Part shown: one piece after another, positions 32,582 through 53,744 of the stretch
Numbering within the stretch: the stretch's first letter is position 1
Layout of the letters: each line of letters opens with the position of its first letter
Assembly (NCBI GenBank): GCA_001873995.1
Contig: MNVR01000028.1
Coordinates: 1 to 64,000 of the forward strand
Direction of reading: 5' to 3'
Length of the DNA stretch: 64,000 nucleotides
DNA from: Candidatus Phelpsiimicrobium noxiivivens
GTDB lineage: Bacteria; Omnitrophota; Gorgyraeia; Velamenicoccales; Velamenicoccaceae
Notes under the pieces: model-generated
Seen by the model: the letters and a program-made list of their open reading frames with translations, nothing else
Told to the model about the DNA's origin: nothing
The model's database searches: none
Position numbers and translations under genes: made by a program

Positions 32582-32632
32582 ATTATACACCAGAACAATC
32601 CTCTTGACAATTCGCCGCTGAAACATTATATT
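32582..32632. promoter_or_regulatory. divergent promoters sharing one -35 box
   Basis: Rightward: TTGACA 32604-32609, 17 nt, TATATT 32627-32632, leading into the FMN riboswitch. Leftward: TTGTCA (32610-32605), 17 nt, TATAAT (32587-32582), leading into pncC. The two -35 hexamers overlap by five bases, so one polymerase excludes the other. Confidence 0.8.
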
Positions 32633-32640
32633 TATAGCAT

Positions 32641-32845
32641 GGTCTTCGGGATCCCTGCCGCTGAACCTTGTGGCGGGTTGGGTGAAAGTCCCAGCTGGCA
32701 GTTATCCGCTTACGGCGGAAAGCCTGCGAGCCCTGATAAAGGGCAGATCAAGTGTAAACCACGTTAGAAACGTTCAAAGAAATTTTAGCGGGTTTCTAAC
32801 TGGGTAAATCTTGAGCCAATAGTAGAGCCTAGATGATAGAAGATC
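32641..32845 (+). promoter_or_regulatory. FMN riboswitch (RFN element) with two expanded regions
   Basis: Conserved pieces are in order: closing stem P1 GGTCTTC (32641-32647) with GAAGATC (32839-32845); P2 GGG-TGAAAG-TCCC; GGCAGT and AAGCCTGCGAG around P3; P4 GCCC/GGGC; P5 TCAAG (32748-32752) with CTTGA (32810-32814); then GCCAATAGTAGAGCCTAGATG. Two stretches are longer than usual: about 29 nt between P1 and P2, and about 57 nt in the P5 loop, which contains a perfect 9-bp stem. Ligand binding should lower expression of the rib operon downstream. Confidence 0.85.
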
Positions 32846-32873
32846 AGGATCATTATTTTTAGATCAACTATTT

Positions 32874-32899
32874 CCCGAAGATTTATCTTCGGGTTTTTT
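32874..32899 (+). terminator. riboswitch expression-platform terminator
   Basis: CCCGAAGA (32874-32881) pairs with TCTTCGGG (32886-32893), followed by six T. The 5' arm is also fully complementary to TCTTCGGG at 32643-32650 in P1, so the same bases can form either P1 with terminator (off) or an antiterminator (on). Confidence 0.85.
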
Positions 32900-32904
32900 A
32901 ATGA

Positions 32905-33025
32905 GCGCACAACTTATGGAGTGTATTTTCGACATAAGTTGTGCGCGCGAATTATCCCATGATTTACGAGCAGATTTTATGCGCGTAGCTCCAGAAATAC
33001 GCGACGTGTACAGATCATGGGATAA
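32905..33025. repeat. two perfect inverted repeats in the ribBA leader
   Basis: GCGCACAACTTATG (32905-32918) with CATAAGTTGTGCGC (32933-32946), 14 of 14 pairs. TTATCCCATGAT (32952-32963) with ATCATGGGATAA (33014-33025), 12 of 12 pairs. They lie after the terminator and before the ribBA ribosome site. The second has the ATCCC/GGGAT ends of the palindrome family. Confidence 0.8.
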
Positions 33026-33044
33026 CCGGATTAGGAGATGTCAG

Positions 33045-34268
33045 ATGGTTTTCAACTCAATAGAAGAGATCCTGGAAGACTTGAAACAGGGCTCGATGGT
33101 TATCGTCGTAGATGATGAGGACCGCGAGAATGAAGGCGATCTTGTCATGGCCGCGGGATTTGTGACTCCCGAACATATTAATTTTATGGCAAAGTTCGGC
33201 AGAGGCCTGATCTGTGTGCCTATGGAAGATGAAAGATTAAAGGCCTTGGATATCTATTCGATGGTTAGCCCTTTTGCCAGGGATGGTTTCGAGCGGGATC
33301 CTTACGCTACGGCTTGGATGATATCTGTTGATGCAAGGGAAGGTGTTACTACGGGTATTTCAGCTCATGACCGCTCTCGCACGATAAAAAAATTAATTTC
33401 GCCTAACACTAAGCCAAGCGATCTTATCAGGCCGGGCCATCTTTTTCCTCTGCGGGCCCTGCGCGGAGGGGTATTAGTGAGAGCGGGGCATACTGAAGCC
33501 TCTGTTGATCTGGCGAGGCTCGCAGGAGTATATCCCGCGGGCGTGATTTGCGAGATCATGAACGAGGACGGGACGATGAGCCGCCTACCGCAATTGATAG
33601 AATTTTCCGTTAAGCACTCTTTAAAGATATGTTCCATTGAGGGCCTTATTGAATATAGGCGTAAAAGCGAAGTCCTCGTTAAAAAAATAGTTGAGACAAA
33701 GCTTCCTACAGAATTCGGTGAATTCAGAATGGCCCTTTATGAATCCATACTAGATGGGTCTAATCATGTTGCTCTATGCATGGGCAACGTCTCCGAGGCT
33801 AATAAAGATGAGGCGGTCTTAGTGCGCGTTCATTCGGAATGCCTGACTGGAGATGTTTTCGGGTCTTTGCGCTGTGATTGCGGCCAGCAATTAAAAAAAG
33901 CCATGGAGCTAGTAGCCAGACAAAAGAGAGGCGTTATTCTTTATATGAAACAAGAGGGCCGTGGCATCGGCCTTGCCAATAAGATCAAAGCTTATTCTCT
34001 TCAGGACCAGGGATTGGATACGGTTGAGGCCAATGAGGCATTAGGGTTTCCTGCGGACCTAAGGGATTACGGTATAGGGGCTCAGATCTTGGCGGATCTG
34101 GGTATCAAAAAGATCAGGCTTTTAACTAACAATCCCCGCAAGATCGTCGGCTTAGAAGGTTATGGCCTGCATATCGCGGAGAGATTAAGCCTGGAGCCTG
34201 AGAAGACCAGGGAAAACGCGAGGTACCTTAAGACAAAAAAGGAAAAACTGGGGCATTTGTTTAAATGA
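33045..34268 (+). CDS. ribBA: bifunctional DHBP synthase / GTP cyclohydrolase II
   Basis: 407 aa from ATG 33045 (AGGAG at 33032), giving the normal N terminus [20 protein letters not shown]. An open frame back to 32901 is created by palindromic repeats and is rejected. RibB half: [12 protein letters not shown] and the [11 protein letters not shown] segment. RibA half (from about residue 210): [23 protein letters not shown] provides the zinc cysteines, and [12 protein letters not shown] the catalytic loop. It makes both riboflavin precursors, the four-carbon unit from ribulose 5-phosphate and the pyrimidine from GTP. First gene under the FMN riboswitch. Confidence 0.97.
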
Positions 34269-52249: not shown

Positions 52250-53708
52250 ACAATTGATGGAAGTTTTGGATATCGCGGGTGAGCCGCCTAAATTTATAAA
52301 TGTGGAGGTTAGGCGTATTTCTTGCGATTCAAGAAATGTGGCCCCTGGCACGGTCTTTGTAGCTGTCCGCGGGCCAATGCAAGACGGCCACAGGTATATT
52401 GACGATGCGGTAAAGAAAAAAGCGAGCGCTGTCATTTTGGAAGATATCTCTTTGAAGCCTCCTGAGGGTTCACGCGTGCCTTTTATAGTAGTTAAAGATT
52501 CAAAAGAGGCTTTAAGTAAAATATCAGACGTTTTCTTCGGCCATCCCTATCAGCGTGTTAAATGCGTTGGAATAACTGGAACTAACGGCAAGACTACGGT
52601 GTCTTATTTAATAAAAAGTATTTTGAATTCGGCTGATATTAAATGCGGGCTTATAGGCACGATAGGCAATAAGGTCCGGGAAGAAAATCTTAAAACTAAT
52701 AACACTACCCCGGGGGTGCTGGAATTGCATGGGTTAATAAAGGATATGGCCCAAGCAGGCGATACCTACGTGGCCCTGGAAGTCTCTTCTCACGCCCTTG
52801 ACCAGGAAAGGGTGAAGGGCATCATTTTTAGATCTGCCATCTTTACTAATCTGACGCAGGACCATCTGGATTACCACAAGACTATGGAGGATTATTTTTT
52901 AGCTAAACAGAAGCTTTTCACGGAATGCGCTGGTAGAGACACGAATTTTATTATCAATAAGGATGAGGCTTTTGGGCAACGCCTTCTGGGGTCATTGAAT
53001 GGGAGAATATTGACGTATGGATTTTCTTCAGACGCCGACGTGTGTGTTATGCGCCACGAACTCTCGCGCAACGGCAGCCAGGCCATCATTAAGATACCGC
53101 AAGGTGTAATAAATATTGTATCTTCCTTAGTCGGCAGGCACAATCTGTATAATATCATGGCCGCGGTAGCTTTTGGGGTCTCTGAAGGGTTAGGCCCTGT
53201 TTCCATAAAGAACGGCATAGAAGCTGTTTCTTACGTGCCCGGCAGGCTTGAGAGAATAGATACAAAAAAAGGTTTCAGTGTTTTTGTGGATTATGCCCAT
53301 ACAGACGATGCTCTTAAGAATGTTCTTGAATCTTTGCGCCTGATTCTCCATAATGGCAGGATTATCACTGTATTCGGTTGCGGCGGGGATAGAGATAAAG
53401 GTAAGAGGCCTAAGATGGGGCGCGTGGTAAGCGCTTTATCTGACTATTGTTTTGTAACAAGCGATAATCCCCGCGACGAAGATCAGGCAGTGATCATTGA
53501 ACAGATCATAGCCGGTATGGAAAAAAATAATTTTGAAGTTATTCCCGACAGATTTAAAGCTATTCAGAAAGCTCTTGTCATGGCAGCCGATGGCGATTTT
53601 GTTTTAGTCGCCGGCAAGGGCCATGAGACATATCAGATCGTTAAAGGTAAAACTTTAGCTTTTGACGATAAGTCTGTTGTTTTGAAGATCCTATCTTTAC
53701 CCCGTTAG
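52239..53708 (+). CDS. murE: UDP-MurNAc-tripeptide synthetase (meso-DAP-adding)
   Basis: 489 aa. Start GTG 52239 in overlap with ftsI. ATP loop GITGTNGKTTVSYL (about 110-123), central Mur-ligase motifs, and SDNPRDED near residue 410; the DNPR motif indicates use of meso-diaminopimelate, not lysine. It adds the third residue of the stem peptide in the cytoplasm. A long perfect hairpin overlaps its stop. Confidence 0.96.
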   Translation: MKIKQLMEVLDIAGEPPKFINVEVRRISCDSRNVAPGTVFVAVRGPMQDGHRYIDDAVKKKASAVILEDISLKPPEGSRVPFIVVKDSKEALSKISDVFFGHPYQRVKCVGITGTNGKTTVSYLIKSILNSADIKCGLIGTIGNKVREENLKTNNTTPGVLELHGLIKDMAQAGDTYVALEVSSHALDQERVKGIIFRSAIFTNLTQDHLDYHKTMEDYFLAKQKLFTECAGRDTNFIINKDEAFGQRLLGSLNGRILTYGFSSDADVCVMRHELSRNGSQAIIKIPQGVINIVSSLVGRHNLYNIMAAVAFGVSEGLGPVSIKNGIEAVSYVPGRLERIDTKKGFSVFVDYAHTDDALKNVLESLRLILHNGRIITVFGCGGDRDKGKRPKMGRVVSALSDYCFVTSDNPRDEDQAVIIEQIIAGMEKNNFEVIPDRFKAIQKALVMAADGDFVLVAGKGHETYQIVKGKTLAFDDKSVVLKILSLPR

Positions 53709-53730
53709 AGAACGAAGCTCTCTAACGGGG
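53700..53730. repeat. hairpin over the murE stop codon
   Basis: CCCCGTTAGAG (53700-53710) pairs with CTCTAACGGGG (53720-53730), 11 of 11 pairs, with a 9-nt loop. The murE stop TAG lies in the left arm. Only three T follow, so it may pause or protect the mRNA more than end it. Confidence 0.8.
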
Positions 53731-53744
53731 TTTACCGGAGAGCT

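Follow-up and report, generated by a model that had tools for sequence, protein, structure and literature searches.

FMN riboswitches of the attenuating RFN type (RF00050), such as that of Bacillus subtilis ribD, form a terminator when FMN is bound (PMC9495366), and J1/2 and P1 were described as parts of their switching helix (PMC3764141). Their loops are known to vary. Barrick and Breaker (2007, PMC2258182) describe FMN and AdoCbl riboswitches whose T-loops are interrupted by a helix at a position that tolerates it; the sites mentioned in the cited text are the P2, P3 and P5 caps, and J1/2 is not among them. Miniature inverted-repeat elements and Rickettsia palindromic elements (RPEs; PMC10969869) are short, palindromic and dispersed sequences, some copies of which have short direct repeats. 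Our literature searches found no work on Omnitrophota riboswitches and, among the titles listed, nothing relevant on palindromes in Omnitrophota.

Here we describe the leader at positions 32641-32899 (forward strand) of the window, the whole 64,000-nt stretch of an Omnitrophota genome that was analysed, which carries an FMN riboswitch followed by an intrinsic terminator. Like the B. subtilis ribD element, it has the P1-P6 core, the conserved junction letters and riboflavin genes downstream, and it is predicted to make its terminator when FMN is bound. It differs in a 32-nt J1/2 with an extra helix, in a 57-nt L5 that contains a repeat and in a score below the Rfam cut-off. It shares with the T-loop insertions of PMC2258182 an extra helix at a permissive point of a T-loop; in the present case this helix is recognisable as a dispersed palindromic repeat, which carries a probable target duplication. 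Two copies of this repeat lie within reading frames, as RPEs do, but it is shorter (47 bp against about 150 bp), has few copies per genome, and its target here is a structured regulatory RNA.

We consider it highly probable that this is a structurally intact FMN riboswitch, that it acts on ribBA as a repressor through transcription attenuation, and that dispersed palindromic repeats have enlarged its periphery. The riboswitch class and its mechanism are already known, and it is the state of this copy that is unusual and informative; what is new is a mobile-looking palindrome, with its probable target duplication, inside the T-loop of an intact riboswitch, together with a recurrent J1/2 helix.

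FMN aptamer in the leader of ribBA

As the earlier note had expected, the RF00050 model matched the leader from end to end (model positions 1-138; 60.0 bits, E 4e-13) with large inserts. The score is under the gathering score of 66.2, and a default Rfam scan therefore omits this riboswitch, apparently as a result of the inserts; several relatives of the same family (L034, L035, L036 and L039) are above it. Since the cut-off is a curation threshold rather than a structural feature, and the leader has the core letters, the helices and the downstream genes of the class, the predicted aptamer is still classed as an FMN aptamer. The RF00050 search gave no other credible match elsewhere in the same genome.

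For comparison within the class, a covariance model was built from 20 relatives, most of whose loops have no large inserts, and 112 class matches were aligned with it in two alignments. In the first alignment, 39 columns reached a conservation of 90% or more across the 59 other class matches. The window agrees with the conserved letter in every one of them; they cover the six-way junction and the T-loops, and relatives with inserts, from the same family and from others, keep 35-39 of them. Thus, no core decay is visible after the inserts. All of P1-P6 can be formed (Table 1), and the leader folds more stably than its dinucleotide shuffles (z -4.2; none of 200 was as good). The unconstrained minimum-energy fold differs from the aptamer; we set it aside as evidence against the aptamer because such a fold ignores the ligand and tertiary contacts.

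The two inserts that had been proposed, in J1/2 and in L5, were both found. A third, a small hairpin in L3, had been missed; L3 inserts are frequent in the class, with 43 of 112 loops longer than 12 nt.

Table 1 Features of the ribBA leader and of the genes after it (window positions)
Feature	Position	Strand	Description
Promoter	32604..32632	+	-35 TTGACA 32604-32609, 17-nt spacer, -10 TATATT 32627-32632; read directly
P1, 5′ strand	32641..32647	+	GGTCTTC; with GGGA of J1/2 also the 5′ half of the antiterminator
J1/2	32648..32679	+	32 nt; conserved GGG kept; hairpin CCTGCCGC-TGAACCTT-GTGGCGGG at 32654-32677, before P2
P2 and T-loop L2	32680..32692	+	L2 GGGTGAAAGTCCC; canonical
P3 and L3	32694..32729	+	facultative hairpin TCCGCTTACGGCGGA at 32705-32719
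P4	32730..32744	+	GCCCTGATAAAGGGC
P5 and L5	32748..32814	+	TCAAG 32748-32752 / CTTGA 32810-32814, enclosing the 57-nt L5
Inserted palindrome with flanks	32755..32808	+	palindrome 32759-32804 (CCACGTTAGAAACG...GTTTCTAACTGGG) between TAAA 32755-32758 and TAAA 32805-32808
P6	32820..32831	+	TAGTAGAGCCTA
P1, 3′ strand	32839..32845	+	GAAGATC
Antiterminator, 3′ half	32873..32881	+	TCCCGAAGA; partner of 32643-32651, overlapping with the terminator's left arm
Intrinsic terminator	32874..32899	+	CCCGAAGAT-TT-ATCTTCGGG, then T6
ribBA	33033..34268	+	RBS AGGAGAT 33033-33039; ATG 33045 is the likely start
ribH	34391	+	after ribBA
nusB	34885	+	after ribBA
ribD	36146	+	after ribBA

The promoter is well spaced and would place the predicted transcription start near P1, and its TTGACA-N17-TATATT layout can also be read in relatives such as L035. 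Downstream of the aptamer, ribBA, ribH and ribD are genes of the riboflavin synthesis and transport set that follows RF00050 elements. Two more palindromes lie between the terminator and the RBS of ribBA (32905-32946 and 32952-33025). The first (GCGCACAACTTATG/CATAAGTTGTGCGC) belongs to a dispersed repeat for which G001, G003, G004 and G006 have matches of 79-84%, and the same spacer is short in G002.

A class-wide attenuation switch

The segment TCTTCGGGA (32643-32651) can pair without mismatch over 9 bp with the 3′ half of the antiterminator, in the left arm of the terminator, and its alternative partner is the 3′ strand of P1, GAAGATC. The leader therefore holds mutually exclusive P1, 9-bp antiterminator and 9-bp terminator helices, the last followed by T6, and we take the B. 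subtilis ribD leader to use the same complementarity. In constrained folds the OFF (FMN-bound-like) state was at -89.2 and the ON (antiterminated) state at -90.3 kcal/mol, a gap of about 1 kcal/mol.

The same logic was found across the class. At 105 class loci the longest run complementary to the P1 5′ strand and J1/2 in the 200 nt downstream had a mean of 9.8 nt, against 7.6 nt in shuffles, and it reached at least 8 nt at 101 of them, mostly as the left arm of a terminator before T residues. Single loci were often non-significant in this test, as the segment is short and G-U pairs are allowed; the evidence lies in the recurring pattern. The two sides covary, so that a change on one is matched on the other (for example CTTCAGGG with CCCTGAAG). 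The three-way switch of the earlier note is thus real, but we dropped it as a special feature of this locus.

With FMN bound, P1 (32641-32647/32839-32845) would be held and the antiterminator blocked, so that the hairpin at 32874-32893 could form ahead of the U-run and transcription would stop. When FMN is absent, 32643-32651 would pair with 32873-32881 and break the terminator, and ribBA would be transcribed.

The J1/2 hairpin

J1/2 is enlarged as had been noted, at 32 nt, whereas most relatives in the class have about 5-6 nt. Of the 7 riboswitches found in the family, 6 carry a hairpin after the conserved GGGAT and before P2; it is absent in G003, and there is none in G008, from the same order. 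Across the six genomes that have it, 45 of 48 cells are paired; when the 3′ arms were permuted, 6 of 720 arrangements did equally well. Compensatory changes were seen at 7 of the 8 arm positions, among them position 8, which pairs in just 3 of the 6 genomes. In a RibD tree G003 falls with G000, G002 and G005, apart from the genus of G004, G006 and G007; this implies loss of the hairpin in G003 or more than one gain. Separate J1/2 hairpins occur in two further taxonomic families (L044 and L050). It is likely that the hairpin is an older helix of the taxonomic family, standing beside an unchanged GGG of J1/2.

The suggestion that repeats had entered the riboswitch is borne out at J1/2 in a relative: the hairpin of G005 is an exact copy of a dispersed repeat of 25 bp (GCCCGCC...GGCGGGC), found twice in tandem in its riboswitch and in six more copies in its genome. 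For the window the likeness is suggestive only. Its reading as a copy of this 25-bp repeat was weakened, as the two are alike in the arms only and shuffles of the loop alone matched as well in 176 of 800 cases.

Another possibility is that selection has favoured the J1/2 helix and the long L5 as new domains tuning the switch; they might, for instance, stabilise the antiterminator or slow transcription past the aptamer and so allow FMN to bind. The compensatory changes, which keep the J1/2 helix in three genera, and its rise or persistence at the same junction in the families of L044 and L050 agree with such a role. However, the hairpin was lost or never gained in G003, nested among genera that bear it, the tandem duplication in G005 points to little constraint on the size of J1/2, and palindromes are found at many positions of the class riboswitches, as expected of tolerated inserts. 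Selection of this kind is unlikely on these grounds, and enlargement by tolerated repeats remains our preferred reading.

A dispersed palindrome in L5

The P5 arms TCAAG/CTTGA pair around the 57-nt L5, and a perfect 9-bp stem (GTTAGAAAC/GTTTCTAAC) lies inside it, both as previously noted. L5 has 7 nt in 104 of the 112 class matches, and that of the window is the longest of all. It contains a palindrome of 46 nt (CCACGTTAGAAACGTTCAAAGAAATTTTAGCGGGTTTCTAACTGGG) with terminal inverted repeats (14-nt arms, 86% complementary). Removing the palindrome and one TAAA restores the loop that is standard in the class (57 - 46 - 4 = 7 nt), and joining the flanks gives TCAAG-TGTAAAT-CTTGA, which resembles TCAAG-TGAAAAT-CTTGA of G003.

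Dispersed copies of this palindrome, two in G000, two in G001 and one in G005, are 6-10 edits apart, with 8-10 edits for those in G001 and G005. The relative at G000:C2:84942 is 79% identical over 48 nt (E 1.6e-4 in the 1.56-Mb genome), and the insert shares both arms and centre (GTTAGAAACGTTCAAxxAAA) with distant copies. In genome-wide counts, which are those of pattern searches only, 3 of the 384 genomes searched from the class contained the exact pattern, each from the taxonomic family of the window. In a wider genome collection a pattern for the repeat was found in two Candidatus Omnitrophota records, and a pattern search of viral contigs did not find it. Two of the 47-bp copies (L076, 1501-1547, and L153, 1451-1497) lie in reading frames, with PVRNPHRSLLNVSDG and PVRNPQKSLLNVSNG in frame, and encode PVRNPxxSLLNVSxG, like protein-coding palindromic elements.

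The two TAAA flanks are a probable target-site duplication. A 47-bp copy in G001 (L196) is flanked by TTTA..TTTAC, the same duplication on the opposite strand. As L196 is the one copy of the four others examined that has TTTA flanks, which L076, L089 and L153 lack, the case for a target duplication comes mainly from the empty-site arithmetic and from L196.

Several genomes of the family also contain a related palindrome of 31 bp, with 54 pattern matches in G003. TTTA..TTTA was the commonest pair of flanks (11 of 40), and 16 of 40 copies had direct repeats 4 nt or longer; several copies in G003 have different outer flanks. One such palindrome (CCCCGTTAGAGAACGAAGCTCTCTAACGGGG) lies in the window at 53696-53734, with TTTA on both sides and ends related to those of the L5 insert.

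A copy of the 47-bp palindrome probably entered the GTAAA stretch of the L5 T-loop, possibly by transposition, and duplicated TAAA. With TAAA duplicated, all of the original loop letters would remain around the insert, and since T-loop letters stand on both of its sides, the inserted helix could be enclosed by a loop of the form U-G-U-A/A. The proposal that repeats entered the riboswitch is accordingly well supported for L5 by the dispersed palindrome, by the 4-nt duplication and by the 7-nt loop that its removal leaves.

Such inserts could also have arisen locally, through replication slippage or template switching at hairpins, with any likeness to repeats due to a general excess of palindromes; the local tandem duplication in G005 and the arms-only likeness of the window's J1/2 hairpin to the 25-bp repeat fit this, but the L5 insert shares arms and centre with distant copies at an E of 1.6e-4, its exact pattern was found in one family only among the 384 class genomes, and the 4-nt duplication is consistent with insertion, so that a local origin appears quite improbable.

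Function of the enlarged riboswitch

From the intact core and expression platform we infer that the switch presumably still works, binding FMN and switching in the cell. Both inserts are predicted to fold on themselves and to stay within the outer pairing in either state; therefore, little effect on the switch is expected of them. A point against this is that L5 participates in L3-L5 docking (PMC3764141), which a loop of 57 nt could weaken.

Decay of the riboswitch, in which the inserts damaged ligand binding and ribBA is constitutive or terminated regardless of FMN, could draw on this docking, on the score below the RF00050 cut-off and on L5 being the longest of 112 loops; yet it is improbable, as all 39 highly conserved positions are intact where several relatives keep 35-38, the promoter, P1, the antiterminator and the terminator are in place, intervening helices in T-loops are already known, and other class members also have inserts in L5 or L2.

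Palindromes and accessory helices in class riboswitches

Variable insertions are well known in riboswitches, and their origin is rarely visible. Here a loop of known tertiary role can be viewed both empty (the 7-nt loops of relatives) and occupied, side by side with the repeat family that is the source and with a probable target duplication. This suggests a concrete way for structured RNAs to acquire accessory helices and stay functional. We tentatively put forward, as a possibility, that mobile palindromic repeats seed peripheral helices of riboswitches in Omnitrophota, one repeat family having TTTAC/GTAAA, which is found in the L5 T-loop, as a preferred target and making a 4-nt duplication that keeps the T-loop letters on either side. 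If so, a tolerated insert could later become a permanent accessory helix, as the J1/2 helix may have done. Score cut-offs can also miss riboswitches invaded by repeats.

Other members of the class have hairpins in L5 (L050, L069 and L102), and many have them in L2, L3 and L6. P4 of L037 and L039, from two genera (G005 and G007), has a near-identical nested palindrome, CTGATTCGTTTTGCATTCGCAAAA(A/G)CGAATCAAAACGGTG, and that of L030 is similar. A similar double hairpin rich in GCGCA...GCGC is found in L3 of L006, L032, L063, L068 and L109, which represent several families of the class. L038 (G006) has inserts in J1/2 and L3 together with a 67-nt L6, more than the window copy, and scores 37 bits with the Rfam model.
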